64,000 nucleotides of DNA from Gallionella sp. (lineage in GTDB: Bacteria > Pseudomonadota > Gammaproteobacteria > Burkholderiales > Gallionellaceae). Below the pieces are notes generated by a model, which ran no database searches, had not been told where the DNA came from, and worked only from the letters and a program-made list of their open reading frames with translations. The translations under genes were made by a program, and so were the position numbers. The stretch is taken from NCBI GenBank assembly GCA_028687575.1, contig JAQTZW010000001.1, positions 124,001 through 188,000 on the forward strand, read 5' to 3'. This document shows, piece after piece, positions 33,201 to 50,493 of the stretch (its first letter is position 1; the number at the start of each line of letters is the position of its first letter).

Positions 33201-33280
33201 TCGGAATTGATATTGGCGGCTGACCAATCCAAATAAACAGAAGACGAGCAATCGTCAATGAAGCACCCAAAGCAATATCC
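33201..33280 (+). ncRNA. Two-hairpin repeat RNA, copy 1
   Basis: ATTGG(33212)-loop-CCAAT and GACGA-GCAA-TCGTC (33243-33256). Confidence 0.6.
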
Positions 33281-33350
33281 AACCACCCACGCGGGGACAC
33301 TTCTCCGCTGGGGCATGGTGTCCCTTTTTTGTTTTTAACAAAAGGAGATC
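33281..33350 (+). promoter_or_regulatory. Structured 5' leader a (type A)
   Basis: CGGGGACACTTCTCCG..GGGGCATGGTGTCCCTTTTTT..AAAAGGAGATCGCCATG. Confidence 0.8.
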
Positions 33351-33353
33351 GCC

Positions 33354-33431
33354 ATGTTCCTGATCATTATTGCTTGCTGCATCACCGGTTACGCCATCAG
33401 TCGTCCAGTAGTACGGGCGTTTGGTTTGTAA
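33354..33431 (+). CDS. 25-aa membrane microprotein MFLIIIACCITGYAISRPVVRAFGL
   Basis: AAAAGGAG SD 5' of ATG; paralogue at 54228-54305. Confidence 0.7.
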   Translation: MFLIIIACCITGYAISRPVVRAFGL

Positions 33432-33432
33432 T

Positions 33433-33497
33433 CAACCCTATCGGGGACACTTCCCCGTACAGGGCTTGTGTCCCTTTTTTATTTCAAGGAGACACAA
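33433..33497 (+). promoter_or_regulatory. Structured 5' leader b (type B)
   Basis: CGGGGACACTTCCCCGTACAGGGCTTGTGTCCCTTTTTT..AAGGAGACACAAATG. Confidence 0.82.
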
Positions 33498-34310
33498 ATG
33501 AAGCGCATCGTCAGAGATTTGCCAATAAAAATTTACCACGCCAGTGACGCGATTTCGCACAGTGGTATCGTGCAATTGCTCAAGTCGCCGGAGCACTACA
33601 AAAACTACAAGGAAGGAATCGTCGAGCCCACACCTGCAATGGAGTTTGGTTCCGCGTGCCACTCATTTATCCTCGAACCAGAGCTATTTGCCAAGGAATA
33701 CGTGCTTGCGACGAAGTTCGACAAACGCACTAAAGAGGGCAAAGAAGCAGCTGTAAAGTGGGAAGAGGAGAATGTAGGCAAAATCCCATTGACTGCCGAG
33801 CAAATAGACGCACTTGCCGCAATGCGGGTGAGTGTTTTTAATCACGCTGGGACAGCCAAAATATTGTCCGCAGGTGAGGCCGAAACATCCTTGTTTTGGA
33901 CGGACGAATACACTGGCTTGCAATGCAGGATTCGCCCAGACTGGATGTTTGATCGCGGTATTGCAGACCTCAAAAGCTGCATCACCGCCAGCAAGGACGG
34001 CTTTTCGAAAGCAGTTGCAAACCTTGGTTATGACGTTCAAGCGGCGTTTTATATTGATGGCATGAAAGCAGTGACTGGGAAAACGGTCAATTTCTACTTC
34101 ATCGCCGTTGAAAAATCCGCACCGTTCTCGACGGCCTGCTACATGGCCAGTCAGGAAATGGTCGAAGTCGGGCGTGCCAAGTATCGCGGCGCGCTTGAGT
34201 TGCTGAAATGGTGTCAGGAAAACAGTCGTTTCCCCGGCTATCAACCCAGTGGTGAGATTGAGTCAATTGATCTTCCGCGCTGGGCAGCAAGCTTCGAACT
34301 CGAAGCCTAA
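33498..34310 (+). CDS. RecE/exodeoxyribonuclease VIII-like PD-(D/E)XK nuclease
   Basis: MEFGSACHSFILEPE...CRIRPDWMFDRGIADLKSC...YDVQAAFYIDGM. Confidence 0.85.
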   Translation: MKRIVRDLPIKIYHASDAISHSGIVQLLKSPEHYKNYKEGIVEPTPAMEFGSACHSFILEPELFAKEYVLATKFDKRTKEGKEAAVKWEEENVGKIPLTAEQIDALAAMRVSVFNHAGTAKILSAGEAETSLFWTDEYTGLQCRIRPDWMFDRGIADLKSCITASKDGFSKAVANLGYDVQAAFYIDGMKAVTGKTVNFYFIAVEKSAPFSTACYMASQEMVEVGRAKYRGALELLKWCQENSRFPGYQPSGEIESIDLPRWAASFELEA

Positions 34311-34318
34311 GACAGTAG

Positions 34319-34383
34319 CAACCCACTGGGGACACGTCCCCGTCGGGGTTTGTGTCCCTTTTTTTACTTAAAGGAGACGCAAA
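34319..34383 (+). promoter_or_regulatory. Structured 5' leader c (type B)
   Basis: TGGGGACACGTCCCCGTCGGGGTTTGTGTCCCTTTTTTT..AAAGGAGACGCAAAATG. Confidence 0.82.
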
Positions 34384-34647
34384 ATGGGCATTCTTATCCT
34401 CGTAATATTAGCAATGGGCATTTTTACAATCATCAAGTGGATGGTTGCATTCATCACCCCGCGCATCAAACGCATCAAAGCAAAATCCGCTCAAAGCACT
34501 TCTCAATCAGTGGTAATACCGATTGAGCCAGGCTGGGATGGTTTTGATAAGCCTGCTTTCATTCGGCGTGGCATTCAGTATCCGATACTCACCGTAAAGA
34601 AACACGGTCGCACACGCAAAGCAAAGCCGGTTTTTGCTGCTGCGTAA
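34384..34647 (+). CDS. Small membrane-anchored hypothetical protein
   Basis: Leader-preceded ORF with N-terminal TM helix. Confidence 0.65.
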   Translation: MGILILVILAMGIFTIIKWMVAFITPRIKRIKAKSAQSTSQSVVIPIEPGWDGFDKPAFIRRGIQYPILTVKKHGRTRKAKPVFAAA

Positions 34648-34650
34648 TTT

Positions 34651-34717
34651 AATCCTTGCAGGGCGATTTGCCTCCTGCAAGGGAAGGTGAATCTCCCCGT
34701 TTTTTATGGAGGACACC
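34651..34717 (+). promoter_or_regulatory. Divergent structured leader
   Basis: CTTGCAGGGCGATTTGCCTCCTGCAAGGG hairpin, then CCCCGTTTTTT and GGAGGACACCATG. Confidence 0.55.
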
Positions 34718-34942
34718 ATGAACAGGAAAATCACCAAACTCGAACGGATTAAATCCAAAGCACTCAGGATTGCGATGACGGCTTTTCTTGCCGACCCATC
34801 ACTGGGTTCGCGCCAGGCCAAATCGCTCTTCTCAGAAATCGTGACCCATTTACAAGCGGGCATGGATGACGAGCAGATCGTACAAACCGTTCTTCAAAAT
34901 AATTCGACAACCTCGCCAACCGGCAAATTGTCGCTGATGTAA
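34718..34942 (+). CDS. Hypothetical protein
   Basis: ORF after leader and SD. Confidence 0.6.
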   Translation: MNRKITKLERIKSKALRIAMTAFLADPSLGSRQAKSLFSEIVTHLQAGMDDEQIVQTVLQNNSTTSPTGKLSLM

Positions 34943-34956
34943 CTGTAGTCGCTGTA

Positions 34957-35026
34957 TCACCCCAACGGGACACTATTCCCGGTTGGGGCATGGTGTCCTA
35001 TTTTGTTTTTTCCAAAGGAGATCACC
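34957..35026 (+). promoter_or_regulatory. Structured 5' leader d (type A)
   Basis: ACGGGACACTATTCCCGGTTGGGGCATGGTGTCC..AAAGGAGATCACCATG. Confidence 0.8.
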
Positions 35027-36079
35027 ATGTCGTTACAAGCACTCAAAAACATCCGCAACACCAACAACAACGCAGCTAAATCCGAGCAACAGCAAGGCTT
35101 TCCTGCGATGCTCGAACAGTTCAAAGGTGAAATTACCCGCGCGCTGCCCAAGCACATTAACCCTGACCGCATGGTGCGCATTGCGCTTACCGCGTTTCGC
35201 ATGACGCCAAAGTTGGCAGAATGCGACCCGCGCAGCGTGTTTGCTGCCGTGATCCAATCCTCGCAGCTTGGACTGGAAGTAGGGTTGATGGGCGAAGCTC
35301 ACCTTGTTCCATTTGGCGGACAGTGTCAGTTAATTCCAGGCTATACCGGATTGATGAAGCTGGCTCGGCAGAGCGGATTGGTCATTGATATCTACGCCGA
35401 AGCGGTGCGTATAAACGACAAGTTCGCGCTCAAGCTTGGTATGGAAAGAAATTTGGAACACGAACCACTAACCGCACCGGGCGGCTTTCCTGCGTCCGAT
35501 GAAGAGCGTGGGGATGTGGTCGGTTTCTATGCGGTCGGCGTTTTGAAAGATGGTAGTCGCACATTTGTCGCAATGGGGCGCAAAGAAGTAGAGCGCATCC
35601 GTGATGGCAGTCGTGGCTACCAGGCAGCCAAGAAATACAAGAAGGAATCCACTTGGGATACCGACTTTGTCGCAATGGGGCTGAAAACGGCAATTCGCCG
35701 CATCTGTAAGTTCTTACCGAAATCTCCCGAGTTGGCAACAGCATTGGCGATGGACGAACAAGCTGGGCGACAAAATCTCAACCTCGACGACGTTATCAAC
35801 GGCAGCTACACGCCGGTTGTTGATGAAGACACAGGCGAGATCAAAGAATTGGAGGGCGAGGGTGATTCCAAATCCACCAAAATTCAAACAGCTCCGAAAG
35901 CAGTAACCAAACTCGAAAAACTCGAAAAGATTGCAGCCGCTTTGAGAACGGCCAGTTCCATCGAGGCGCTGGACGAGGTTTATGTCCGCGCTGAAGGTGA
36001 GTTGGAAGACGCAGAGCTGGAAGTTGTCTTGCGCGAGTATCGAAAATGCAAAGATGCGATTAGCGATAGCCTGATTTAA
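35027..36079 (+). CDS. recT: RecT-family single-strand annealing protein
   Basis: PDRMVRIALTAFRMTPKLAECDPRSVFAAVIQSSQLGLEVG...ECQLIPGY-type core. Confidence 0.93.
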   Translation: MSLQALKNIRNTNNNAAKSEQQQGFPAMLEQFKGEITRALPKHINPDRMVRIALTAFRMTPKLAECDPRSVFAAVIQSSQLGLEVGLMGEAHLVPFGGQCQLIPGYTGLMKLARQSGLVIDIYAEAVRINDKFALKLGMERNLEHEPLTAPGGFPASDEERGDVVGFYAVGVLKDGSRTFVAMGRKEVERIRDGSRGYQAAKKYKKESTWDTDFVAMGLKTAIRRICKFLPKSPELATALAMDEQAGRQNLNLDDVINGSYTPVVDEDTGEIKELEGEGDSKSTKIQTAPKAVTKLEKLEKIAAALRTASSIEALDEVYVRAEGELEDAELEVVLREYRKCKDAISDSLI

Positions 36080-36083
36080 CAAG

Positions 36084-36155
36084 CAACATCCACCTTACGG
36101 GGGCATTTCCCGTAGGGGTTGTGTCTCCTTTTTATTTTAATTTGGGAGACACAAA
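36084..36155 (+). promoter_or_regulatory. Structured 5' leader e (type B)
   Basis: TACGGGGGCATTTCCCGTAGGGGTTGTGTCTCC..GGGAGACACAAAATG; 10-bp complementarity to SD region. Confidence 0.75.
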
Positions 36156-36347
36156 ATGGGCGCATTGTTTGATATGAAATCATTTTTTGCATGGCTTGAA
36201 AGCGCAGGTGAACATGAGCTTCTGCAACGCAGGGATCAGTTGCAATACGCTATCAACCACAAACTTACCGAGGGCGGTGTAATTGCCGATGCCAGGTATT
36301 TGCTCAAGGAAATCGAGCAAGAAATGCTGGCTAGGACGATGAGATAA
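36156..36347 (+). CDS. Hypothetical protein
   Basis: Leader-preceded ORF. Confidence 0.6.
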   Translation: MGALFDMKSFFAWLESAGEHELLQRRDQLQYAINHKLTEGGVIADARYLLKEIEQEMLARTMR

Positions 36348-36648
36348 CCTTCAATGAAAGCGAGTTACGTCGACCAATTACATCGCTCAGGCGGTTGTAT
36401 TCGTCGGTGTCACCGTCAATGATCGCCAACACTAAATTGCGTTCCAAAGCATCTTTGGCATTGCAACGTAGTCGTCTGGCAATCAACGGTTCAACATCTG
36501 CAAGTCGAAGACCTAGCGAATCGCTAAGGCTTTCAAATTCTTGTTGATCGAGAACTTCAGGCGTGGAAAACAGGATGCGTTTTTTGCATTCCAGTTCTTC
36601 TTTGCCTCCAGTAATAACCGTGAAGGATGGTTTTCGTGATTCGTTCAT
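36331..36648 (-). CDS. Hypothetical protein
   Basis: Reverse ORF without competing forward ORF. Confidence 0.5.
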
Positions 36649-36669
36649 GCGTCCAGTCTAACACGATCA

Positions 36670-36749
36670 AAACCCAACGCGGGATCACCAGTATCCCGGT
36701 CGGGGCATGGTGTGAACGTTTTTTTATTTTTCAAAAAAGGAGAAGCACC
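36670..36749 (+). promoter_or_regulatory. Structured 5' leader f (type A)
   Basis: CGCGGGATCACCAGTATCCCGGTCGGGGCATGGTGTG..GGAGAAGCACCATG. Confidence 0.7.
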
Positions 36750-37181
36750 ATGTTGAACAAAGTACAACTAATCGGTCGTCTGGGCAAAGACCCGGAAGTT
36801 CGTTACACCACCGAAGGTGAAGCAGTTGCCAATGTTTCGATAGCAACAACCGAAAGCTGGAAAGACAAAGCCGGCGTGAAACAAGAGAAAACAGAGTGGC
36901 ACAATCTGGTTTTTTACCGCCGTCTTGCCGAAGTGGTGGGTGAACACCTCAAAAAAGGTGCGCTCATCTACATTGAGGGCAAGCTCACAACCGAAAAGTA
37001 TCAAAAAGACGGAGAGGATCGCTATATCACTAAAATTGTTGTCTCCGAGATGAAAATGCTCGGTAGCAACAAGGTGTCAGACGACCATCAGGTTGCTGAA
37101 CCCGTAGCGAAAACAAGCGCTCGCAACGGCAATAATGGTGCTGGAAAATCCGCAAAACAGGCGGGGCCAGAACCTTTTTAA
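36750..37181 (+). CDS. ssb: Single-stranded DNA-binding protein
   Basis: [42 protein letters not shown]. Confidence 0.95.
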
Positions 37182-37183
37182 TT

Positions 37184-37329
37184 GAAGCACTCACCCCGGG
37201 GGGAAACATTCCCCTTGGGGGATGCTTCCTTGCTGGTGGCTTAAAAACTACCCGCCCACACGGGACACACCAAAACATCCCGTCGGGTGCTTTGGTGTGT
37301 CCCATGCGGGATTTAACCAAGGAGGCATC
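37184..37329 (+). promoter_or_regulatory. Tandem divergent leaders g1/g2
   Basis: g1 GAAGCA..CCCCGG..GGGGGATGCTTCC; g2 GGGACACACCAAA..TTTGGTGTGTCCC 13-bp stem; then GGAGGCATCATG. Confidence 0.65.
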
Positions 37330-38403
37330 ATGGAAGCGAAAGAGTTGAAGCAATTGGCATCTGGACGCTGGGAAAGCATTGTTACGTCGCTCGCCCCGCA
37401 GCTAGGGCAAGCCGTAAAGCGATTACCGCACCACGTTCCATGTCCCGTGCATGGTGGCGTAGATGGTTTTCGCCTATTCAAGAATTTTGACGAAACAGGC
37501 GGCGGCGTATGCAACACATGCGGCATCCAGCACGACGGATACGCATTGCTTATGTGGGCAAATGGATGGGATTTCAAGACCACTCATAGCGCGATACACG
37601 ACATGCTGCTGGGGGACAGAGCGAACCAATATCGACCACCAGTAGCACCGACCCAAGTCGTCAAAAAGGAAAAGGAAGTGGATGTTCAAGCCATACGCGA
37701 TTCACTGAATCATGTATGGAAGCACAGCATTCCCTTGTCATCCTCTGAAGCCAGGCCAGCAAGAATGTATTTGGCGAACCGAGGTATCAGGCAAATTGAC
37801 TATCGGAAAATTGATAGCAACATGATCCGTTTTTCCCCTTCGCTTGAGTATTACGAAGAGGGGAAGCTGCTCAACAAGTATCCCGCTATTGTCACGATGG
37901 TATGTGATTCAGACGGTCGTCCTTCGACGGTTCATCGCACCTACATCACTGACAACGGGACAAAAGCACCTATCCCGTCTCCAAAGAAAATGATGCGGCA
38001 CTGCGCCGACAATTTATTTGGCGCGATGAGGATAGCGGTACAGGGCAACGGCAAGGTTTTGGCAGTTACAGAAGGTATCGAAACCGCACTGGCTGTCATG
38101 GGAGTTTTTAATGTACCGGTATGGGCTGCCGGCAACGCCTACTTGCTGGAAAACTTTGTGCCACCCCAAGGGGTTGACGTGGTGATCTATGCCGACAAAG
38201 ACCGACCATCCAGACAGCACCCTGATGGACACGGTTTGAGTGCGGCGAAGTTGCTGCTCAAACGCTTATGGAAAGAGGGCATCAAGGCAAGTATCAAGCT
38301 ACCCGGCAACGAGATTCCGCAAGGGATGAAATCGGTTGATTGGCTTGATGTGGTCAACGGCAATGTGCCTCAAGCACCCGCCGAAAAAACCGCTACACGG
38401 TAG
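37330..38403 (+). CDS. Zinc-finger/TOPRIM primase-like protein
   Basis: CPVHGGVDGFRLFKNFDETGGGVCNTCG; VTEGIETALAVMG...VVIYADKDRP. Confidence 0.88.
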   Translation: MEAKELKQLASGRWESIVTSLAPQLGQAVKRLPHHVPCPVHGGVDGFRLFKNFDETGGGVCNTCGIQHDGYALLMWANGWDFKTTHSAIHDMLLGDRANQYRPPVAPTQVVKKEKEVDVQAIRDSLNHVWKHSIPLSSSEARPARMYLANRGIRQIDYRKIDSNMIRFSPSLEYYEEGKLLNKYPAIVTMVCDSDGRPSTVHRTYITDNGTKAPIPSPKKMMRHCADNLFGAMRIAVQGNGKVLAVTEGIETALAVMGVFNVPVWAAGNAYLLENFVPPQGVDVVIYADKDRPSRQHPDGHGLSAAKLLLKRLWKEGIKASIKLPGNEIPQGMKSVDWLDVVNGNVPQAPAEKTATR

Positions 38404-38448
38404 GCGCAACCAATCTCGCATTGGCCAAGTAAACCGATGGCCGTTTTA

Positions 38449-38468
38449 CCCCGCTTGCGGGGCTTTTT
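38449..38468 (+). terminator. Intrinsic terminator
   Basis: CCCCGC-TT-GCGGGG-C-TTTTT. Confidence 0.75.
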
Positions 38469-38600
38469 ATGGCGCACTCCACGAGTGCGTCACAAAAAGA
38501 AAATTCATGCTCATCGCGTAATGCCTTGAGTTGATATTGGTGGCTGGCCAGTCGAAATAAACAGAAGACGCGCAAGCGTCACTAAGGAATTACCAATAGC
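38464..38600 (+). ncRNA. Inverted repeat plus two-hairpin repeat RNA, copy 2
   Basis: IR 38464-38498; ATTGG..CCAGT (38536-38552); GACGC-GCAA-GCGTC (38567-38580). Confidence 0.6.
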
Positions 38601-38620
38601 AGCACAAGAAGCATTTAATT

Positions 38621-38688
38621 TAACCCAACCGGGGACACTCTCCCCCTTGGGGCATGGTGTCCCTTTTTATTTCAAAAAGGAGATCACC
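38621..38688 (+). promoter_or_regulatory. Structured 5' leader h (type A, GTG start)
   Basis: CCGGGGACACTCTCCCCCTTGGGGCATGGTGTCCCTTTTT..AAAAAGGAGATCACCGTG. Confidence 0.8.
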
Positions 38689-39339
38689 GTGAAACAAGTT
38701 TTTCATTTTTATGCAGACCCCGGACACGGCTGGCTTGCCGTCAAGAAGCATTATCTGCATTGTTTTGGCATCGCTTCTCAAATCACGCCATACAGCTACC
38801 AACGTGGCGATACGGCCTACCTTGAAGAGGATTGCGACTTGTCGATTTTCCTGGCTGCACTCAAGGAGGCCGACATCGAAGCAGACATCAGATCGCATCA
38901 CACTGATCGTCAATCCAGAATTCGCGGATATAACTCGTATCGTTGCCAAGATACGGGCATGTGCAAGATCGAAAAAGTATCCGAGGGTCTTTGGCTGGTA
39001 CGCAACGAAAAAAATGAGCGTATCGGCGAGGTCTTCGGCATTAAAGGAAAATTTCAGGCGCAAACCATGACGGGTGTTTTCGTCGCAAACGGCAGAACAT
39101 TGTGTCTGGCGGCGAAACTTCTGGATTCTGCTCAATACCATGTGGTCGCCATTGTCCATGATCCGCGTACCAACGAAGGCATGAAGGATGTACCGACAAT
39201 GGGGTATTACAACGAGTCGCGCGACATTGCCTTGATTCAAGCAAGAAGGTGGGCGAATGATGGTTACTGGACAACGGTGTACAACACGGTGTCTGGTGAA
39301 GCTCTCTACGACTTCCCTCCGTATGGAGGCGTCCAATGA
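38689..39339 (+). CDS. Hypothetical protein
   Basis: Leader-preceded ORF starting GTG. Confidence 0.65.
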   Translation: MKQVFHFYADPGHGWLAVKKHYLHCFGIASQITPYSYQRGDTAYLEEDCDLSIFLAALKEADIEADIRSHHTDRQSRIRGYNSYRCQDTGMCKIEKVSEGLWLVRNEKNERIGEVFGIKGKFQAQTMTGVFVANGRTLCLAAKLLDSAQYHVVAIVHDPRTNEGMKDVPTMGYYNESRDIALIQARRWANDGYWTTVYNTVSGEALYDFPPYGGVQ

Positions 39340-39632
39340 GGCACACACAAGGCCCTTGGCATAACGTCGCCAACACCGAAATCAGAGCGCGTTTCGCAAA
39401 CCAGAATGGCGATCACATCGCAACTGTCTGGGCTAACGGGGAATCAGAATCAGCAGCGAATGCAAGACTCATCGTTGCCGCACCTGATTTGCTGGAAGCA
39501 CTCATCATGGCCGAGCTTTTTATACTCGGTTTTGAGGATGACGAAACGCAAAAAGGTATTTCCAACAAACTGCTTCAGATACGTGCAGCCATTTCAAAGG
39601 CCACAAAGGGAGGCCGCAATGCCAACCCTTAA
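39336..39632 (+). CDS. Phage/plasmid-type hypothetical protein
   Basis: TQGPWHNV...NARLIVAAPDLLEAL typical small accessory protein; ATGA overlap. Confidence 0.65.
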   Translation: MRHTQGPWHNVANTEIRARFANQNGDHIATVWANGESESAANARLIVAAPDLLEALIMAELFILGFEDDETQKGISNKLLQIRAAISKATKGGRNANP

Positions 39633-39969
39633 AACTTTTGATGGCTACAAGCGCACAACCTTCAGCTTCAACGAAAGTTGGAAGGACGACGATGTGCATG
39701 AGTATGTCGGGAAATTCCGAATTCTCAAAATCAGGCGCATCGCTGAAATTGACACGGCTAACGGAGAAGCGGAAGGGCGTATCTATACCGTAGCAGCTCC
39801 AAAGGATGTATCCAAAGCGGACGTTATTAACGTTCTGCAAGGCGCATTCACTCGGCATTGTCGTTGCGAGAATGATTGTTGCGGACATCTGTTGATTGGC
39901 GTTTCTTCGATTCGTCGAACAAAGCGCAGAGAGTGGTTGGTTGAGGTTGCACGTCGCTATAACGTGTAA
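39619..39969 (+). CDS. Hypothetical protein
   Basis: Overlaps upstream ORF. Confidence 0.6.
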   Translation: MPTLKTFDGYKRTTFSFNESWKDDDVHEYVGKFRILKIRRIAEIDTANGEAEGRIYTVAAPKDVSKADVINVLQGAFTRHCRCENDCCGHLLIGVSSIRRTKRREWLVEVARRYNV

Positions 39970-40027
39970 CAAATAAACGCTGAGCATGAGTGGTTTTACA
40001 TGCACAGCGTTCGATGAGGTTTTTTCT

Positions 40028-40096
40028 AAACCCTAGCGGGGACACATCCCTGCCAGGGGCTTGTGTCCCCTTTTTTTGTTTAAAAAGGAGACGCAA
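40028..40096 (+). promoter_or_regulatory. Structured 5' leader i (type B, GTG start)
   Basis: GCGGGGACACATCCCTGCCAGGGGCTTGTGTCCCCTTTTTTT..AAAAAGGAGACGCAAGTG. Confidence 0.82.
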
Positions 40097-43000
40097 GTGA
40101 AACCAATGAGATTGAAAAAAATTAGCGCAGCCATCATGTGGTTGCCGGGTTTTGAGCCGGCAGACAATATGCCTGTTGTATTGCAAGGGCCAGATGTTCC
40201 GCATCGAGAAGCTGAAATCATCCGGTTTCCCAAGTCGGTAGCTGCCGTAGTTGAAAAAATCAAGGCAGTGTGGCCGTGTCTTAATGCCGTTACCTTGTCC
40301 AGTCTATCGGGCAACGTTTCAAAATTCGACGCGAACATTGCCGCAATCGAACTCCTGCGCAAGCTGGAAGACGAGAAAAGGCAACCCACCACGGAAGAAC
40401 GAGACATTCTCAACCGTTACACAGGGTGGGGCGGTATTCCGCAAGCGTTCAATGACGACCAAAAGGACGAAGCATGGGTTTCTCGTGCTGCACGCCTCAA
40501 GGAACTATTAAATGAAAGCGAACACAAATCCGCTGAAGCCAGCACACCGAATGCGCACTACACCGCACCAGAAGTTATCGAAGCGATGTGGCGCATGGTG
40601 GAACGGCTGGGTTTCAAGGGTGGTCGCATCCTTGAACCCTCTGCGGGTGCTGGCTTTTTCCTCGGCGCGATGCCACAAGAAACCGCCCAAAAAAGTACTG
40701 TCACAGCAATCGAACTCGACCAACTGTCGGCGCGCATCCTGAAAACTCTATACGGAGATTTTGGGGTAAACGTCATACAAGGCGGGTTTGAGGCCACAAA
40801 GCTGCCAGCGGGGTTTTACGATCTGGCGATCAGCAATGTGCCATTCGGGAATTACCAAGTACCGGAATTGCGTAATGTGCCTTACGCCAATTTCCTGATT
40901 CATGACTATTTCTTTGCGAAAGCGATGGAAGTTGTCAGGCCGGGTGGGTTGGTGGTGTTCATTACGTCCTCCGGGACGATGGATAAGCATGACGATAAGG
41001 TGAGGCAGTATCTTGGCAGCAAGGCTAATTTGGTGGCAGCAGTTCGCTTACCCAATACTGCTTTCAAGAAAATCGCCAATACCGAAGTCACCACCGACAT
41101 ACTGGTATTGCAAAAACCGCTTGAGGGACGCAGCAGTAAAAAAGGCTGGATGGAAACTATCACCCTGCCTGAAACGTCCCCGATCTACCAGCCATGCAAG
41201 GAATACTGGAGAAGGCAGTCCATCGCCTGCAACCAGTATTTTGCCGCGAACCCTCAATGGGTCATCGGCAAGCTAACGCTGACAGAAAACGGCTACAGCA
41301 AATCAACAGGGTGTGTGTTCGATGGAAACTTCGAAGAAGCACTGGCTCATAAGGTATTCCTGTTTCCAGAGAATATTTACACGGCAATTCAAAACAGCGA
41401 ACAGCCGAAAGAGCTAAAACCTACACTCCTGGGGTACAACGACCAGGGACGCCCAGGTTTCCGGGTGATTAACGGACAGGTGTACGAAACAACAGACGGG
41501 TTGGAAGCGTTGCAGTTCATCGCGCCGCAGAAGACCTTGGAACGCATCATGGGAATGTGCAGTATTCGTGATGCGGCACGCAAGATTATTCGGTCACAAG
41601 TAGAAACGGAGAATGAGGCGATTCTTGCCACTTATCGGTTGCTACTGAATATCGAGTACGACAACTTTGTTGCCCAATACGGAAATATTTCCGAGAAGGC
41701 AAACCGGAGAGCTTTCAAAAGCGATCCCGATCTGCCGTTGCTGATGTCGCTGGAACGCGGGGATGAGGAAACTCAAAGCGCCGAGAAAGCAGACATATTT
41801 ACTCAGCGCACGGTGGGGGTGTTCAAACGGGTTGATCATTGCGAAACATCGGAAGATGCGTTGCTGGTTAGTCTGTCCGAGTGTGGCAGCATCGTCGAGA
41901 ATCGGATTGCTGAATTGCTTGGGAAACCGAGTTGCGCAGCCATGAAGGAACTCGAAGAGAGGGGCGCAGTGTTCCTTGATCCAGAAACCGACCATTGGGA
42001 AACCAAGGACAGTTATTTGTCAGGTGATGTCCGTAAAAAACTCTCTGCTGCTAGGGTGTCGGGTGAGCGTTACAGCCGAAATGCGCAAGCGTTAGAGGCC
42101 GTGATTCCAGACGATTTAACACCCGGCGAGATCGGTGCGCGCATCGGTTCAACGTGGATACCAACCGGTGATTACGAAGCCTTCCTTGATGAAACTTTGG
42201 AGTGCAACGGAAACGCCGTGACGTTCAATCAGGCAGCCGGCGCGTGGAATATCGAAACGCACTACAGCACCAAATATTCGATACCAGCCACGCAAAAGTT
42301 TGGCACTGAACGGGTCAATGCAGCAGATCTGTTTGACCAGGCGTTGAATCAAACCGTGCCGACCGTGTATGACCCTGACAAAGTTAATCCCGACAAGCGT
42401 GTGGTTAACCAAAAGGAGACCATCGCAGCACGGGAGAAACAGCAATTACTCAAGGATACATTTCAGGAGTGGTTGTGGCAGGATCAGGAACGGGCAACAA
42501 GATTGGCAAGACTTTACAACGACACGTTCAATTGTGTTGTGTCACGTCAGTACGATGGACAGCATTTGGTATTGCCGGGATTTTCACGGATATATCGGCT
42601 GCATGACCATCAGAAAAACGCGATCTGGCGTATTGTTGCAAGTCAACGTAACACCCTGCTTGCCCATGTTGTAGGGGCTGGCAAGACACTGACTTGTATC
42701 TGTGCGGGTATGGAATTGCGTCGCTTGGGCAGAGCCAGTAAACCGATGTATGTGGTGCCAAACCACATGCTTCACCAGTTTGCAGCCGAGTTCCTGCGCG
42801 CGTATCCCGGTGCGAATATTCTGATTGCGTCGAAAGATGATCTTCAGGGTGACAAGCGTCGTCAGCTTCTATCTCGTATCGCTACCGGCGATTGGGATGG
42901 CGTGCTGATTACACATGCTTCATTCGAGCGTATCAAAATGAGCGATGAGTTCATGGAGGAATATATCCAAAACGAAATCGACCAGATTGAAGATGCTATG

Positions 43001-45013
43001 TGTACCGAAAAGCAGGATCGCGGTAATCGCATCATCAAAGAACTAGCCCGTGCGAAAAAATCATGGGAAGCAAAGCTGGCGAAACTGTCAGGGGCAAATA
43101 AAAAGGATGACATTTTGTCCTTTGAACAGCTTGGTATTGATTGGCTGTTTGTAGATGAGGCGCACATGCACAAAAACTTGTGGAGATTCAGCAAGATGAC
43201 ACGGGTCGCCGGATTGCCTAACAGCAATTCGGAGCGGGCATTCGACATGTTCGTCAAAACTCGTCACGTCATGGAAAAACACAAGGGCAGGGCTGGCGTG
43301 GTGTTCGCAACTGGCACGCCGGTATCCAACAGCATGGCCGAGATGTGGGTGATGCAGCGATACCTGCAACCGAAGACGATGGAAGCCTACCAGGTGGGGA
43401 TGTTTGACACTTGGGCGGGAAACTTTGGGGAGTCAGTAACGGCGCTGGAGCTTGCTCCAGATGGTAGGGGTTATCGGATGCACACCCGCTTTGCGCGATT
43501 CGTCAATTTACCTGAACTGATGTCTATGTTCGGCGAGGTGGCGGATATTCGCACGGCGGAGATGTTGAAATTGCCTGTGCCGACCACGCACAAGGAAACG
43601 GTCACAATCAAGCCGACAGCGGATTTGAAAGCGTTTGTCCAAACCCTTGTGGCGCGGGCAGAAGCGATCAGAAACGGCAACGTTAGTCCTTCCGTGGATA
43701 ACATGTTGGCGATCACCAACGAGGGTCGCAAGGCTGCGTTGGATATGCGTTTGATTGATTCATTCGCTGAAGTCGAGGATGGCAAGGTGAACCATTGTGC
43801 CGAGAGAGTTTTCGGTATCTGGGGGGAAACCAAGCTGTTCCGTGGGACACAAGTCGTGTTTTGCGATTTGTCCACGCCGCTTGAAAATGGGCGGTTCAGT
43901 GTATATCAGGCGTTAAGAAGCAATTTAGTTGAACGAGGTGTTCCAATCGAAGAGATTGCTTTCATCCACGATTTTGATAGTGATTCCGCCAAGGACGAAC
44001 TGTTCAAAGCCGCGCGTGATGGGCGTACCCGCATCCTTCTGGGCAGCACGCAGAAGATGGGGGTTGGAACCAATATTCAGACTCGACTGGCGGCGTTGCA
44101 TCATCTGGACGCGCCGTGGAGACCCTCGGATGTAGAACAGCGGGAAGGGCGCATTATTCGTCAGGGCAACCTGAACGAAAGCGTGCGCATCTACCGCTAT
44201 GTAACAGAAGGGTCGTTCGATGCCTACATCTGGCAAACGCTTGAAACCAAGGCAAGATTCATTGCTCAGGTCATGCAAGGGGATACCGGGATGCGTAGTG
44301 CAGAGGATGTTGAATTGGCCGCGCTGTCGTATGCCGAGGTAAAAGCCTTGGCATCAGGCAATCCGCTGGTGTTGGAAAAAGCAGGTGTTGATACCGAGCT
44401 TGCCAAGCTGTCGTTGCTCCGCTCTCAATGGGATCAGCAACAATGGCGCAACAAGCAGGAGCTGGCGACGTTGCCAGGTCGTATCGAACGTGTCCAAGCC
44501 AGAATTACCGGCATTGAATCCGACATGGCTGCTCGACAAGATGTATCTGGTGGCAAATTCCTGATGGAAGTTGAAGGGAATCGCTATACAGACCGCGCCG
44601 AAGCGGGCAAGGCAATACTCCAAGCCGTGTACGGAAACAAAGCTAAGCGTGATCGGAACATTGGTCAGATTGCCGGATTCCCTATTGCTGCGAAAGTGAC
44701 AGTGCTTGAAGGAATGGTGCTGGTGATCCTGGGTGGTATTGAGTATCGCTGCAACCACGCGGAATCAGCACAAGGTTTTGTGCGTGTACTCGAAAATACG
44801 CTCAACCGGATGGAAATGGTGCTTCAGGGAGAGCTGGAGTATCTGGCCAGAACCGAAAAACGCATGGCTGATATTCATACCGAAGCCGTAAAGCCGTTTG
44901 ATAAGGCTGCGCGGCTGGAGTGGCTGAAACAACGGCAACGAGAAATCGAAGCCGAGCTTGACTTGAATAAGGGCGAAAACACCGCTGTTGAAGAAACGGC
45001 GGAAGTCGTCTAA
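40097..45013 (+). CDS. Giant DNA methylase-SNF2 helicase fusion (DarB-like antirestriction architecture)
   Basis: RILEPSAGAGFFLGAMP, AISNVPFGNY methylase motifs; AHVVGAGKTLT, VDEAHMHKN, GVGTNIQTRLAALHHLDAPWRPSDVEQREGRIIRQGN helicase motifs. Confidence 0.9.
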   Translation: MKPMRLKKISAAIMWLPGFEPADNMPVVLQGPDVPHREAEIIRFPKSVAAVVEKIKAVWPCLNAVTLSSLSGNVSKFDANIAAIELLRKLEDEKRQPTTEERDILNRYTGWGGIPQAFNDDQKDEAWVSRAARLKELLNESEHKSAEASTPNAHYTAPEVIEAMWRMVERLGFKGGRILEPSAGAGFFLGAMPQETAQKSTVTAIELDQLSARILKTLYGDFGVNVIQGGFEATKLPAGFYDLAISNVPFGNYQVPELRNVPYANFLIHDYFFAKAMEVVRPGGLVVFITSSGTMDKHDDKVRQYLGSKANLVAAVRLPNTAFKKIANTEVTTDILVLQKPLEGRSSKKGWMETITLPETSPIYQPCKEYWRRQSIACNQYFAANPQWVIGKLTLTENGYSKSTGCVFDGNFEEALAHKVFLFPENIYTAIQNSEQPKELKPTLLGYNDQGRPGFRVINGQVYETTDGLEALQFIAPQKTLERIMGMCSIRDAARKIIRSQVETENEAILATYRLLLNIEYDNFVAQYGNISEKANRRAFKSDPDLPLLMSLERGDEETQSAEKADIFTQRTVGVFKRVDHCETSEDALLVSLSECGSIVENRIAELLGKPSCAAMKELEERGAVFLDPETDHWETKDSYLSGDVRKKLSAARVSGERYSRNAQALEAVIPDDLTPGEIGARIGSTWIPTGDYEAFLDETLECNGNAVTFNQAAGAWNIETHYSTKYSIPATQKFGTERVNAADLFDQALNQTVPTVYDPDKVNPDKRVVNQKETIAAREKQQLLKDTFQEWLWQDQERATRLARLYNDTFNCVVSRQYDGQHLVLPGFSRIYRLHDHQKNAIWRIVASQRNTLLAHVVGAGKTLTCICAGMELRRLGRASKPMYVVPNHMLHQFAAEFLRAYPGANILIASKDDLQGDKRRQLLSRIATGDWDGVLITHASFERIKMSDEFMEEYIQNEIDQIEDAMCTEKQDRGNRIIKELARAKKSWEAKLAKLSGANKKDDILSFEQLGIDWLFVDEAHMHKNLWRFSKMTRVAGLPNSNSERAFDMFVKTRHVMEKHKGRAGVVFATGTPVSNSMAEMWVMQRYLQPKTMEAYQVGMFDTWAGNFGESVTALELAPDGRGYRMHTRFARFVNLPELMSMFGEVADIRTAEMLKLPVPTTHKETVTIKPTADLKAFVQTLVARAEAIRNGNVSPSVDNMLAITNEGRKAALDMRLIDSFAEVEDGKVNHCAERVFGIWGETKLFRGTQVVFCDLSTPLENGRFSVYQALRSNLVERGVPIEEIAFIHDFDSDSAKDELFKAARDGRTRILLGSTQKMGVGTNIQTRLAALHHLDAPWRPSDVEQREGRIIRQGNLNESVRIYRYVTEGSFDAYIWQTLETKARFIAQVMQGDTGMRSAEDVELAALSYAEVKALASGNPLVLEKAGVDTELAKLSLLRSQWDQQQWRNKQELATLPGRIERVQARITGIESDMAARQDVSGGKFLMEVEGNRYTDRAEAGKAILQAVYGNKAKRDRNIGQIAGFPIAAKVTVLEGMVLVILGGIEYRCNHAESAQGFVRVLENTLNRMEMVLQGELEYLARTEKRMADIHTEAVKPFDKAARLEWLKQRQREIEAELDLNKGENTAVEETAEVV

Positions 45014-45020
45014 AGTTCTT

Positions 45021-45046
45021 CCACCCCTTGATTGGGGTGGCTTTTT
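45021..45046 (+). terminator. Intrinsic terminator
   Basis: CCACCCC-TTGATT-GGGGTGG-C-TTTTT. Confidence 0.78.
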
Positions 45047-45180
45047 ATGACGCACTCCACGAGTGCGTCATAAAAAGAGAATTCATGCTCATCGCGTAAT
45101 GCCTTGAGTTGATATTGGTGGCTGGCCAATCCAAACAAACAGAAGACGAGCAATCGTCAATGAAGCACCGAAGCAATATC
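45042..45180 (+). ncRNA. Inverted repeat plus two-hairpin repeat RNA, copy 3
   Basis: 16-bp perfect IR 45042-45076; ATTGG..CCAAT (45114-45130); GACGA-GCAA-TCGTC (45145-45158). Confidence 0.6.
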
Positions 45181-45183
45181 AAA

Positions 45184-45252
45184 TCAACCCACACGGGGAC
45201 ACTTCCCCGTATGGGTTTGTGTCCCCTTTTTTTCGTTAAAAAGGAGACGCAA
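45184..45252 (+). promoter_or_regulatory. Structured 5' leader j (type B) upstream of radC
   Basis: ACGGGGACACTTCCCCGTATGGGTTTGTGTCCCCTTTTTTT..AAAAAGGAGACGCAAATG. Confidence 0.85.
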
Positions 45253-45870
45253 ATGACCTACCAAACCATCGCAGCACAAAGCCTCAGCACCCCCGACTTG
45301 CTGGCTATGTTGGTCGGGAAAGATAAGGCTCAAGCACTTTCGCATACTTCGCTTTCCGTGTTGTTTGGAATGCGCGCCAACCGCCAAACTACGGTTGTCT
45401 GCGAAAAGCAACCTCAGTACGCGCCTGCATCGATCATCTCAGCAGCAAAAGAGCTGGTTATGCGTGCGCTATCCGAGGACATCACACAAAACCCAATCAA
45501 CCTCAATAATCCAGTTGAAGTTAAGAAATATCTGAAGTTGTTGTTGGGTGGGCGGCAGCAAGAGGTGTTTGTGGTGTTGTTTCTCGACACGCAACACCGA
45601 TTGATCGCCGCCGAAGAGTTATTTCACGGCACGCTGACGCAAACCAGTGTGTATCCGCGCGAGGTTGTAAAACGTGCGCTGATGCACAACGCGGCGGCAG
45701 TCCTATTGGCTCACAACCATCCTTCCGGTCTGGCCGAACCAAGTCAGGCCGATCAACTATTGACCAATGCGCTGAAACAGGCATTGGCACTGGTAGATGT
45801 GCGTGCGCTGGATCACTTCATTATTGGTGACGAAAGCGCATTGTCATTCGCCGAAAGGGGGCTGATATGA
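45253..45870 (+). CDS. radC: RadC-like JAB/MPN-domain protein
   Basis: [56 protein letters not shown]. Confidence 0.95.
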
Positions 45871-46103
45871 ACAGTATCGCCTATGTTGGGAGTTGTCCGG
45901 TTACCAAGGGCGATTTAAAACGCTTGAAGAAAATGTCTCGACTGGCCAAGCAATTTGCCTCGCTACATTCGGGGTTATCAGACGGGTGTAATTACGCCCT
46001 GTTTGAGATGCATTGCGAAGATTCCTCTGTGAATCATATTGCATGTGTCATAGAGGACGTTACAAACGAGGCAGTTGATAGTCTGACAAGAGCGTTTCAT
46101 TAA
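45867..46103 (+). CDS. Hypothetical protein
   Basis: ATGA overlap with radC. Confidence 0.6.
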
Positions 46104-46173
46104 CCACCCAACTGGGGACTTCGTTCCCCTTGGGGCGTGAGGTCTCCATTTTTTTCATTAAGAGGAGATCACC
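46101..46173 (+). promoter_or_regulatory. Structured 5' leader k (variant)
   Basis: ACTGGGGACTTCGTTCCCCTTGGGGCGTGAGGTCTCC..GAGGAGATCACCATG. Confidence 0.72.
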
Positions 46174-47009
46174 ATGTTTTTTGAAACGACGATAGACAAG
46201 CGCAGCAAAAAAGCGATGATTGATTTTTGGCTGGTCATTATAGATACAACACCATGAACGGCTGGAATCACTCAACAAGCTATGCGCACTGCATAAAGGT
46301 CAATAAACTTGGCCTGACTTCCGAACAATCGAATGCGGCATACGACATGCTGCAAACAGATTTTTGGAATGAAATTGACGAACCAATTGCAGATTTCACC
46401 TCAGAAATGAGTGGGAGCTACACGATTGGAACTAACGGACGATCCAACGGCTACCTCGTTCTCTATAAAAGCGAGTATGAGTTGACTGGATACAAATCTT
46501 ATTGCCGCACCTGTGGGCAACGAAACTTCAAGCTGGTGCATGATGCTGCGAAGTCAGCGGATCATGCCTTTATTGAGGCGTATGTGTTTCGCAATGGCGG
46601 GTGTTGGGTAGATGCAATTTACCTGGCAGAACCCGCCATCGCAGCAATCGAACTGTCGGATGAGGAGAAACTTTCCATGGTTCAATCAGCGAAACTTGCT
46701 TGCAAAGACGCGACCATCGGCAATAAGTGTGGTGCATGTGGCACTGAAGGCGAACATGGCCGTGTTAATTACACGCGACCACAAAAACGCTTGTCAGTGT
46801 CAGGAAAGAATGTTGACCAGAATGAAGATTTTTCTGAATGGTCGTTGCCTGAACTTCGTAATCGCGTTGAACTGGTTCGCCGGTTCGATCAAGCGTGTGA
46901 CGAAATTCGGGATAATTTCATTGGGCTTATTAGCACCTGTAAGGTTGTCGAAGAGGTCGTAATGATCCCAAAGACTGTGAAGCGGATTGAATGCTGCCAC
47001 GCATCTTGA
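46174..47009 (+). pseudogene. Hypothetical zinc-ribbon-containing protein, frameshifted in a T-run near its N-terminus
   Basis: MFFETTIDKRSKKAMIDF then shift into LAGHYRYNTMNGWNHSTSYAHCIKV...; leader and SD lie before 46174. Confidence 0.65.
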
Positions 47010-47039
47010 AATAAGTAATTAGTCGGTTGATCCGACTCT

Positions 47040-47108
47040 AACCCAACTGGGGACACCTCCCCATTGGGGCATGGTGTCCCTTTTTTGTTTCATCAAAAGG
47101 AGAATGCC
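47040..47108 (+). promoter_or_regulatory. Structured 5' leader l (type A)
   Basis: CTGGGGACACCTCCCCATTGGGGCATGGTGTCCCTTTTTT..AAAAGGAGAATGCCATG. Confidence 0.8.
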
Positions 47109-47972
47109 ATGCAAGAAATATCAAATCGCCCCGATTGGGGCAAGCTGTTTTTGGACGCTCTTTCCTGCCCAGGAAAGATTTCTGAGGCGTACTCGGTATT
47201 CCATGAGTACAGCCTTGGCAATGCAATTCTTGCTGCGCTTCAATTAACAGCCAGAGGTTTGCAGCTATCGCCCATTGCCTCCTTCAATAAATGGAAGCAA
47301 TTAGGGCGGTGCGTTCAAAAAGGCCAGAAGGCAATCGCTTTGGTGATGCCAGTTACCGTCAAAGCCAAGTCGAAAGACGAGGATGAACGCGGTGCAGCTA
47401 ACGCAGAAGTAGATGCCAACACGCAAGCCAAGGGTTCGGGACGCACCATTTTCATCCTGAAAAATAACTGGTTTGCGTTAAGCCAGACAGAAGGCGCGGA
47501 GTATGCGCACGAAGTCGTTATTCCTGAATGGGACAAGGCGCAAGCCCTGTCTGTACTGGAAATTACGGAAGGGCACTTCAATTTAACGGACGGCAATACC
47601 CAAGGGTACGCAGTCCCGAACGAGAAGCGCCTGGCGATCAACCCGCTTGCCGCCATGCCGTGGAAGACGTTGTTCCATGAAATGGCTCACTGTCTGATGC
47701 ACTCGAAGGAGACACAGATGGCAGACGGCAACGTGTTGCCACGAGACATCAAAGAGGCTGAAGCTGAATCGGTGGCGTATTTGTGTTGCGCAACACTTGG
47801 ATTGCCGGGGTTGGATGAAAGTCGCGGCTACATTCAGGGCTGGCTGGGTTCAAAGGAGCGATCCGATGAGTTCGGCAAGAAGAGCGCGGCACGGGTATTT
47901 TCTGCGGCTAACAAGATACTCAAAGCAGGCACGGAAGCTGCGAGAGCAGGGGAAGTGTGCAATGAGCAATAA
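47109..47972 (+). CDS. ArdC-like antirestriction protein with metallopeptidase domain
   Basis: GNAILAALQ...FNKWKQLGRCVQKGQKAIALVMP; LFHEMAHCLMH. Confidence 0.85.
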   Translation: MQEISNRPDWGKLFLDALSCPGKISEAYSVFHEYSLGNAILAALQLTARGLQLSPIASFNKWKQLGRCVQKGQKAIALVMPVTVKAKSKDEDERGAANAEVDANTQAKGSGRTIFILKNNWFALSQTEGAEYAHEVVIPEWDKAQALSVLEITEGHFNLTDGNTQGYAVPNEKRLAINPLAAMPWKTLFHEMAHCLMHSKETQMADGNVLPRDIKEAEAESVAYLCCATLGLPGLDESRGYIQGWLGSKERSDEFGKKSAARVFSAANKILKAGTEAARAGEVCNEQ

Positions 47973-48189
47973 AGTCAAAACAGAAATCATGCACACGTCC
48001 TCCGAAGGTGTTCGTTTTTTAACGCCGACCGGATGGAAGGTTTTGTGCGATGGACATGGTGATGCCCGCTTAACGGGTGGCGTTTGGACGTACAAAAGCG
48101 ACAAAGAAGAAGCACATCGAATGCAGCAAGAGCGATGGAAGGAAATCAAAGCTCGCTCTGATCGTTACTACTCCCAATGTTGGGTGTAG
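47962..48189 (+). CDS. Hypothetical protein (75 aa)
   Basis: ATG overlapping the ardC-like stop. Confidence 0.6.
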   Translation: MSNKVKTEIMHTSSEGVRFLTPTGWKVLCDGHGDARLTGGVWTYKSDKEEAHRMQQERWKEIKARSDRYYSQCWV

Positions 48190-48202
48190 CAGCTAATTAA
48201 CT

Positions 48203-48267
48203 AACCCACACGGGGACACTTCCCCGTCAGGGTTTGTGTCCCCTTAATTTTGTTAAGGAGACACAAC
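48203..48267 (+). promoter_or_regulatory. Structured 5' leader m (type B)
   Basis: ACGGGGACACTTCCCCGTCAGGGTTTGTGTCCCCTTAATTTTGTTAAGGAGACACAACATG. Confidence 0.85.
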
Positions 48268-49956
48268 ATGCAGCAACAAAACATTTCACACATGCGTGTG
48301 AGCAACATCCGCCAGGGGAGAAATCCCCGTGCTTATTTTGATCCAGTCGAAATGGCCGAAATGGAAGCGTCAGTCTCTGCAAAGGGAGTGATTCAACCAA
48401 TCTTGATTCGTCCGGTTGAAGACTGGTTTGAAATTGTTGCCGGTGAGCGTCGTTGGCGTGCAGCTAAGAATGTGCATGGTGACAATTACGAAATCCCCGT
48501 CCTTGTGAAAAACATCACCTCGGAAGAGGCCGATGAGCTGGCTCTGATTGAGAACATTCAGCGCGCCAACATGAGTCCAACCGAAGAAGCCGCAGCAGCA
48601 GCCAGAATTCTTGGTCGTTGTGAAGGTAACCGTGACGAAGCAGCCAATCGTCTGGGTTGGACACGCAAAACGCTGGATAAGCGCCTTGCGCTGATGAACT
48701 GTAGTCTGTCTGTGATGACTGCCCTGAATGAACGCAAGATCCAACTGGGTCATGCCGAATTGCTGGCGGCCACACCGAAGGATAGACAGGAGAAGGTGAT
48801 TGCCAATCTGCTTTCACGGCCATCGCTTCCAACTGTTGCTATATTCAAAGCGGGTTTGGAAGAAATTTCCCAGGCGATGTCCTTAGCAATTTTCGATAAA
48901 ACAGACTGTGCAAGCTGTCATCACAACAGTGGGAACCAACAAGCATTGTTTGCCGAGGCGGTATCTGCGGGGCATTGCACAAACAGCGAGTGTTTCAACA
49001 AGAAGACTGAGGACGTGTTGGAAGCCAAGAAGCAGTCCCTGGCAGAAAACTACCCTTGCGTTGTCATCGTCCGCCCGGGCGAGAACAACACAGTCATCAA
49101 GTTGGTCGCAGAAGGTGCGACAGGCGTTGGTGCAGAACAAGCAGCAGCTTGCCGTAGTTGCAAGTCATACGGCGCGGCAATCAGTGCGGTACCCGGCAAA
49201 GTGGGTAACGTATATGAATCGCAATGCTTCGATTCCTCATGTCACACCAGGAAAGTCGGTGAACATTTGTTGGCGGAAAAGAAATCGGCTGAAAATCCGA
49301 CGACTGTTCCAACAACGGCTAAATCGGCTGATTTGAAGGTTGTGACTGGGAAGGGGGCGGAGAAATCCACAACCACACCAAAATCTGCCATGACCTCTGT
49401 TCAGGACACTCAGCGTGTCGTGGAGTATCGGATCGGCATCTGGCGTAAGGCGTTGAAGAAAGAATTATTCGCAGATCCACATAAGAACTTGTGCGTGCTC
49501 ATCGGTGTAATGATGACGCGCGGAGGGACGAATGTGTCATCTACAAAACTGGCAACCGGTTTTGAATCGCTAACATCGCAAAAGCCACCCGTCAGTAATG
49601 TCGGTGATGCGGCTGCGATGGTTGCGAATGCGAACGACACAGTGCGCGCTCAAATGCTGTCTGGGATCGTAATTTCAATCACGGACAGCATCGAGAAATC
49701 GCATCTGCCGGAAATGCTCAAATTCATGCAGGTGGATTTGGTAAAACACTGGAAACTGAACGCAGAGTTCCTTGAATTGCTCACCAAAAGCGAGATAGAG
49801 GTCATTGCGGAAGAACTCGGACTGAGGGCCGCGCTTGGCGAGAAATACGCTAAAGCAATCGGCGGCAAAAAGGACGAGATGATTAAAGCACTCCTGGCGG
49901 TCAAAGGCTTCGTTTACGAAGGCAAGATTCCAAAGGCTTTGCAGTTCACTGCTTAA
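48268..49956 (+). CDS. parB: ParB/RepB-type partition protein (PRTRC-linked)
   Basis: IRQGRNPRAYFDPVEMAEMEASVSAKGVIQPILIRP...AGERRWRAAK. Confidence 0.93.
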   Translation: MQQQNISHMRVSNIRQGRNPRAYFDPVEMAEMEASVSAKGVIQPILIRPVEDWFEIVAGERRWRAAKNVHGDNYEIPVLVKNITSEEADELALIENIQRANMSPTEEAAAAARILGRCEGNRDEAANRLGWTRKTLDKRLALMNCSLSVMTALNERKIQLGHAELLAATPKDRQEKVIANLLSRPSLPTVAIFKAGLEEISQAMSLAIFDKTDCASCHHNSGNQQALFAEAVSAGHCTNSECFNKKTEDVLEAKKQSLAENYPCVVIVRPGENNTVIKLVAEGATGVGAEQAAACRSCKSYGAAISAVPGKVGNVYESQCFDSSCHTRKVGEHLLAEKKSAENPTTVPTTAKSADLKVVTGKGAEKSTTTPKSAMTSVQDTQRVVEYRIGIWRKALKKELFADPHKNLCVLIGVMMTRGGTNVSSTKLATGFESLTSQKPPVSNVGDAAAMVANANDTVRAQMLSGIVISITDSIEKSHLPEMLKFMQVDLVKHWKLNAEFLELLTKSEIEVIAEELGLRAALGEKYAKAIGGKKDEMIKALLAVKGFVYEGKIPKALQFTA

Positions 49957-50028
49957 CAACCCAACCGGGGACACTTCCCCGTAAGGGCATGGTGTCCCTT
50001 TTTTGTTTTTCTAAAAAGGAGATTTACC
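49957..50028 (+). promoter_or_regulatory. Structured 5' leader n (type A)
   Basis: CCGGGGACACTTCCCCGTAAGGGCATGGTGTCCCTTTTTT..AAAAAGGAGATTTACCATG. Confidence 0.82.
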
Positions 50029-50493
50029 ATGTTTACTGCACTTCAAACTTTGCTGGCCACCTTGGCTAGTCTGACTGTCTCTCTGGCCGCAAACACGGAT
50101 GGCACCATTACGGTGACTGTCATTCCGAAAGGCGGCAAAGAAGGTAACACCCTCGATACCCCGCTGACACTCACCGGCACTGCCGCTGAGTTGGATGAGG
50201 GATTCGCTGGCATCTTGACCAGCTATGCGAACAAGCGTCAAAACTTGTCCGACCAACTGGCCGCGACAGAAGCGATCCTGGAAGCAGCACAAAAGGAAGC
50301 TGCTGACAAAGCGAAGAAGTCCATCGCCAAGCCGGCCAATAAAACATCCGCACCGATCACTGATGAGGAAGCAGGTTCGGGTGACGAGGACGATGATGAA
50401 GGGGGCGCAAGCTGCACCGCGCCCACATCACCGATTTCTACAGAAGCTTGCACACCTGCGGCGGCACCAGATGCCAAAGCCTTGTGGGATTAA
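50029..50493 (+). CDS. PRTRC system protein E
   Basis: MFTALQTLLATLASLTVSLA...VIPKGGKEGNTLDTPLTLTGTAAELDEGF; context. Confidence 0.82.
   Translation: MFTALQTLLATLASLTVSLAANTDGTITVTVIPKGGKEGNTLDTPLTLTGTAAELDEGFAGILTSYANKRQNLSDQLAATEAILEAAQKEAADKAKKSIAKPANKTSAPITDEEAGSGDEDDDEGGASCTAPTSPISTEACTPAAAPDAKALWD

Follow-up and report, generated by a model that had tools for sequence, protein, structure and literature searches.

Almost all early genes of a conjugative mobile element in Gallionella sp. are each preceded by a copy of the same structured RNA leader. As judged from sequence comparison, the copies belong to a widespread leader family that is sited exactly at start codons and has, on its sense strand, three helices that covary and exclude one another. 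The window analyzed here is the whole stretch of 64,000 nt from contig JAQTZW010000001.1 (GCA_028687575.1), positions 124,001-188,000. The four strands of a leader, numbered 1 to 4 from 5' to 3', pair as 1:2, 1:3 or 3:4. Helix 3:4 lies on the Shine-Dalgarno (SD) sequence and start codon, the alternative helix 1:3 frees the ribosome-binding site (RBS), and both covary. Translational control through hiding and exposing the RBS is strongly suggested, and we favor, with moderate confidence, a cis-acting kinetic switch in which the leader would govern translation of the adjoining gene, being open when nascent and closing afterwards.

Leaders in the Gallionella Window

An earlier note on this DNA had placed 13 leaders with the strand order 1-2-3-4. 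All 13 were found at those sites, on the + strand and spanning 33285-50031, and the start codon at which each one terminates has a good SD sequence. The consensus is GGGGACAC for strand 1, UCCCCG for strand 2, GUGUCCC(C) plus a U-run for strand 3, and AAAAGGAGA..AUG for strand 4. The exact pattern GGGGACAC..GTGTCCCC occurs 3 times in the window, versus 0.00 times in 100 shuffles, and all window matches to GTGTCCCY/GGGGACAY lie inside leaders, except for one GGGGACAT at 31160. A scan of the whole genome found the motif restricted to this element. Compared with dinucleotide shuffles, the leader copies fold with z = -2.7 to -8.8. Leaders and related features are listed below, with scores in bits from a covariance model (R1) built from 11 window copies; ORF denotes an open reading frame.

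33285..33356, +, leader of a 25-aa ORF (33354-33431), first operon; R1 80.3 bits, fold
33435..33500, +, leader of a DUF3799 PD-(D/E)XK nuclease gene (33498-34310); R1 63.6 bits, Pfam
34321..34386, +, leader of an 87-aa ORF (34384); R1 63.7 bits
34652..34720, +, divergent leader of a 74-aa ORF (34718); fold
34959..35029, +, leader of recT (35027-36079); R1 66.3 bits, Pfam RecT
36092..36158, +, leader of a 63-aa ORF (36156); R1 37.2 bits
36672..36752, +, leader of ssb (36750-37181); R1 42.3 bits, Pfam SSB
37193..37242, +, leader-like hairpin with no start codon (37184 of the earlier note); R1 E=0.046
37250..37332, +, leader of a primase gene (37330-38403); fold
38623..38691, +, leader of a 216-aa ORF (38689), second operon; R1 77.6 bits
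40030..40099, +, leader of a 1638-aa helicase gene (40097-45013); R1 71.4 bits, Pfam
45187..45255, +, leader of radC (45253-45870), third operon; R1 70.7 bits, Pfam RadC
46106..46176, +, leader of a 28-aa ORF (46174-46257); R1 65.6 bits
47041..47111, +, leader of an ArdC-N protein gene (47109-47972); R1 82.3 bits, Pfam ArdcN
48204..48270, +, leader of a PRTRC-type parB gene (48268-49956); R1 58.3 bits, Pfam ParB
49959..50031, +, leader of a PRTRC protein E gene (50029-50493); R1 88.5 bits, Pfam

Two further divergent copies had been proposed, at 34651 and 37184, and only the first held up. The 34651 copy is written in other letters (strands 3/4, GGUG..CUCC / GGAGGACACC; 1:3, GAUU.GCC/GGUGAAUC), yet it retains the nascent 1:3 and final 3:4 folds in prediction. 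At 37184 there is a hairpin alone, not followed by a start codon; the working primase leader is 37250-37332, which has a 13-bp 1:3 helix and an open RBS in the minimum free energy (MFE) fold of the complete RNA.

Leaders are about 55-85 nt long, typically about 70 nt with two hairpins. The layout can be written as ACCC(0)-x-GGGG-AC-AC(1)-UCCCC(2)-x-GGG(0')-anti-start + anti-SD(3)-toehold-loop-antitoehold-SD-AUG(4). Strand 1, which the earlier note had drawn in a small hairpin with strand 2, is thus part of a longer one, ACCC(0)..1..2..GGG(0'). Two coupled classes of strands 3/4, CAUGGUG/CACCAUG and UUUGUG/CACAAAUG, are intermixed in the window, and strands are near-identical among copies of one element. 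Conservation throughout the family is limited to the columns of the SD and of the C/G tracts that exchange partners; no unpaired nucleotide is conserved across the family, and loop and linker columns vary.

A Widespread Family Sited at Start Codons

Model R1 detected 103 leaders (E<0.001) in 20 sources. With a second covariance model, R2, 34 of the 369 class genomes (32 of 272 genera) had matches, usually several on one strand of a contig; of 299 phylum genomes, 15 had matches. About 250 distinct leader sequences were gathered with the covariance models.

Annotated plasmids were used to locate the leaders relative to genes (Sulfuricystis pSTJ2, Delftia, pMOL28, pHG1 and one B. vietnamiensis plasmid; pMOL28 and pHG1 are Cupriavidus plasmids). 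Among 44 matches, 33 end at most 6 nt from an annotated coding sequence start, compared with about 1% by chance. In P. aeruginosa pKLC102, leaders precede most genes of the 40.9-51 kb region, with the same predicted nascent and final folds as the other leaders but in unrelated letters. The first 50 kb of the IncC plasmid pAR060302, taken as a negative control, had no leader at E<=1. No family of Rfam 15 matches the leader, and no earlier description of it was found in the open-access literature, subscription papers and supplements not being covered.

Covariation of Three Competing Pairings

In 71 non-redundant leaders, the duplex energy of a leader's own strands was compared with that of strands exchanged from other leaders. 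This swap test gave z = -14.3 for 1:2, -14.9 for 1:3 and -14.6 for 3:4, versus -0.3, -2.8 and -0.7 for the control pairings 1:4, 2:3 and 2:4. The mutually exclusive pairings 1:2, 1:3 and 3:4, which the earlier note had read from the window alone, are therefore each matched within the leader. Swaps confined to single elements, which take out lineage effects, still gave z = -5.8 (1:2), -5.7 (1:3) and -6.4 (3:4). The resemblance of strand 1 to strand 4, also pointed out in that note, is borne out by own-versus-swapped similarity (z = 8.0).

Covariation across homologues, on which the earlier note had made its proposal depend, is present for all three helices. RNAalifold on the first MAFFT alignment picked 1:3 alone, and the helices P1 and P2 were supplied by hand for the covariance model. 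Two-sided column changes numbered 124 in P1 and P2 versus 29.6 in shuffles, and 23 versus 9.1 in 1:3, the latter counted on an alignment made without fitting that helix. Because 1:3, unlike 1:2 and 3:4, was no part of the models, its signal is not a product of model fitting. G.U pairs outnumber A.C combinations by 145 to 13 in 1:3 and by 44 to 7 in P1, a bias indicative of sense-strand RNA.

Predicted Nascent and Final Folds

Fold statistics were obtained for 131 non-redundant leaders. For the full-length RNA the predicted minimum consists of P1 and 3:4, and the SD is paired (P>0.7) in 114 of the 131, in agreement with the proposal that 3:4 buries the SD and start codon. When the RNA ends before strand 4, 93 of 131 are predicted to favor 1:3, with a 2:0' hairpin nested inside it, a fold that does not occupy the RBS. 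This hairpin matters for the outcome: with strand 2 forced unpaired, 1:3 had seemed unfavorable in the open state, and permitting 2:0' reversed the result. The nascent fold is thus predicted to differ from the equilibrium fold and to expose the RBS. A length scan of the copy at 49959 passes from 1:2 to 1:3 and on to 1:2 plus 3:4 as the RNA lengthens.

In the full RNA, the median energy needed to free strand 4 and the RBS is 9.4 kcal/mol. Median direct-path barriers are 13.1 kcal/mol from the open to the closed state and 22.2 kcal/mol in the opposite direction. The sequence following strand 3 pairs with that preceding the SD and forms a putative toehold; this pairing is matched within leaders even where there is no U-run (z = -5.3).

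A Proposed Kinetic Switch and Its Alternatives

Our preferred reading, the kinetic translational switch, would work as follows. While strand 4 is still to be transcribed, strands 1 and 3 would pair, as would tracts 2 and 0', and the RBS would emerge free. Bases just 3' of strand 3 (the U-run in the window) would then pair, as a toehold, with bases 5' of the SD, and strand 4 would displace strand 1 in a step that is in practice irreversible. In the finished RNA, 0:0' and 1:2 would form the upstream hairpin and strand 3, as the anti-SD, would lie on strand 4 (A-run, SD and start region), turning translation off. Folding order in vivo would matter, allowing a brief period of translation after transcription and silencing old or leaky mRNA. 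More tentatively, we propose that the leader is a ligand-free, self-timed switch that exchanges paired tracts only and stands before most early genes of many proteobacterial conjugative elements, giving a burst of expression on arrival and silence once the element is settled.

Several points weigh against the kinetic switch. Among the nascent prefixes, 28 of 131 favor 1:2 over 1:3 and 10 of 131 are mixed, and the 37250 copy and 2 of the 9 pKLC102 copies shown favor the open form even when complete. The energies are for isolated RNA with standard parameters, and the findpath barriers are upper bounds, allowing lifetimes of seconds to hours. The covariance model was fitted to P1 and P2, which biases their column counts upward, and the register of the toehold test was derived from the predicted fold, a mild bias. 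Finally, the strong sequence likeness of copies within one element could reflect a shared trans-acting factor.

This last point leads to an alternative that leaves the RNA architecture unchanged and puts the trigger in trans: an RNA-binding protein of the element or host, a small RNA or a ligand would stabilize 1:3 and open all RBSs together. A shared partner would need just such near-identical strands, and the closed state is so much more stable than the open one that help to open it may be required. We nevertheless regard control by a factor as somewhat unlikely. The pKLC102 leaders are alike in structure and little alike in sequence, the family has no conserved unpaired nucleotides of the kind expected in a ligand-binding aptamer, and among the matches listed for window proteins (25 of 47 in one listing) there is no ProQ/FinO, CsrA or Hfq family. 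A trans-acting RNA in particular was rejected, the window having no additional motif copy to serve as one. For the common signal by which, in the earlier note, the whole element might be switched, neither conserved unpaired nucleotides nor such an additional copy was found.

Transcription attenuation, which the earlier note had offered together with or instead of RBS sequestration, would have 1:3 and the U-run act as an intrinsic terminator ahead of every gene, until an antiterminator, or a processive antitermination RNA located at the operon head, overcomes it. The window copies look the part, as at least 5 U follow strand 3 in 12 of 13, the nascent MFE fold is a terminator-shaped hairpin, and the operon heads share blocks. 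In the wider family, however, a U-run of at least 5 is found in only 47 of 131 non-redundant leaders, 63 of 131 have at most 3 U, and the pKLC102 copies have no U-run. Where the U-run is lost, other letters still pair with the bases preceding the SD. Termination is therefore unlikely to be the shared function, and RBS closure is the conserved feature. In addition, the anti-terminator form (1:2) would hide the RBS too, and terminators in series within operons would starve distal genes. Thus, the sequestration half of the proposal is supported and attenuation is improbable as a general explanation, termination being possible for Gallionella-type copies.

A structure in single-stranded DNA acting on the incoming T-strand, i.e., an Frpo/ssi-like promoter, would suit the gene set (ssb, antirestriction, recombination, partition) and the MobH relaxase neighbor of a leading region, where Frpo elements have been described (PMC11541004), but it was rejected and can be virtually discounted, as the leaders contain no -35/-10-like elements, their pairing extends into the start codon, they begin 2-16 nt after upstream stop codons, and the excess of sense-strand G.U over A.C is the opposite of that expected for a structured template strand.

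Relation to the radC RNA

The earlier note had suspected that the leader might be the radC RNA motif (RF01754). In gene context the two agree, as radC, ssb, recT, ardC-like and parB genes lie downstream of leaders, and both RNAs are multi-copy and precede genes of mobile elements. Identity was nevertheless rejected: RF01754 has no match in the window at the gathering score or at E<=5, nor in 8 related loci searched with Rfam, and alignment of genuine radC RNAs taken from genomes showed them to be separate from the leader. The radC RNA is a multi-hairpin feature of 149 nt that does not include the RBS and differs from the leader in sequence and structure. It resembles a module of operon heads, whereas the leader occurs at the RBS both of head genes and of internal ones.

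The two features are neighbors in Pseudomonas-family elements, where a leader (E<0.1) starts 9-30 nt downstream of the radC RNA in 10 of 16 cases. This position suggests that the radC RNA belongs to the same control system, in which it would serve as an operon-head module. The guess was thus right about the neighborhood and wrong about the molecule. The sites concerned in pKLC102 (locus L143) are:

10681-10914, radC RNA (RF01754)
11758-12015, radC RNA (RF01754)
14286-14490, radC RNA (RF01754)

The other loci concerned are L130, L131, L134 and L144.

The Surrounding Element

Among the leader-bearing genes of the window, Pfam identifies those for a DUF3799 nuclease, RecT, SSB, a primase, a very large helicase, RadC, an ArdC-N protein, ParB and PRTRC protein E. 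Most internal leaders start 2-16 nt past the upstream stop codon and therefore lie within polycistronic messages. Adjoining the leader region, on the - strand, the element encodes an F-type transfer system (TraN, TrbC, TraU, TraW) and a MobH-type relaxase. On alignment, a 121-nt block (repeat D5) recurs at the head of each of the three leader operons; it contains TTGATATTGGYGGCTGRCCA and a GACGNGCAANCGTC hairpin and is perhaps a promoter or an operon-head RNA.

30476..32419, -, MobH-type relaxase gene (TraI_2); Pfam
30310-25279, -, TraW/TraU/TrbC/TraN genes, after the relaxase gene; Pfam
33137..33257, +, D5 copy 1, preceding the first leader; alignment
38461..38581, +, D5 copy 2; alignment
45039..45159, +, D5 copy 3; alignment

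The two tiny ORFs of 25 and 28 aa (33354-33431 and 46174-46257) each own a full leader and are, for this reason, probably translated. A PRTRC cassette at 50509-54080 encodes prokaryotic ubiquitin-like, E2-like, JAB and ThiF-like proteins, with leaders only at its first genes (ParB, protein E), and Fic-domain and HipA-like genes lie shortly past it at 54943-58668. Related contigs in the database carry the names Gallionella, Nitrotoga and Sideroxydans. In other loci, an sbcD RNA (RF01757) lies at 35677-35831 of L140 (pMOL28), in a region shared with leaders, and group II intron pieces at 567-2922 of L091 adjoin a leader-bearing region.

Comparison with Known Systems

The leader is new to Rfam 15 and to the literature searched, and it has strong covariation for two mutually exclusive folds. 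Its presence in well-studied replicons (pKLC102, pMOL28, pHG1) makes it directly testable. The distribution suggests that many of the entry genes of conjugative elements, for single-strand binding, recombination, antirestriction and partition, are under one common post-transcriptional control, and the long-unexplained radC RNA, just a table entry in the main text of PMC2864571, would find its place as an adjacent operon-head module of the same system.

The STAXI motif, for which a function in single-stranded DNA was proposed, has similar kinds of neighboring genes (ssb, antirestriction, integrase and topoisomerase genes; PMC2864571) but consists of tandem pseudoknots with UUCG loops, and it has no Rfam match in the leaders. 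Frpo/ssi single-strand promoters are likewise structured elements ahead of leading-region genes (PMC11541004); the leaders differ from them in having no promoter hexamers and a wobble bias that indicates sense RNA. With intrinsic-terminator attenuators and RBS-sequestering riboswitches the leaders share mutually exclusive terminator-like and anti-SD helices, whereas they have no conserved aptamer, their U-run is not conserved, and they are repeated 13-15 times in one element.

In folding order the family resembles metastable leaders. In the leader of the MS2 maturation protein (A-protein) and in hok mRNA, the RBS stays accessible in the nascent fold and becomes hidden in the equilibrium fold, the same order, open when nascent and closed when complete, that is predicted for the present family. 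Those leaders serve single genes; here a covarying module stands before many genes, across many elements.

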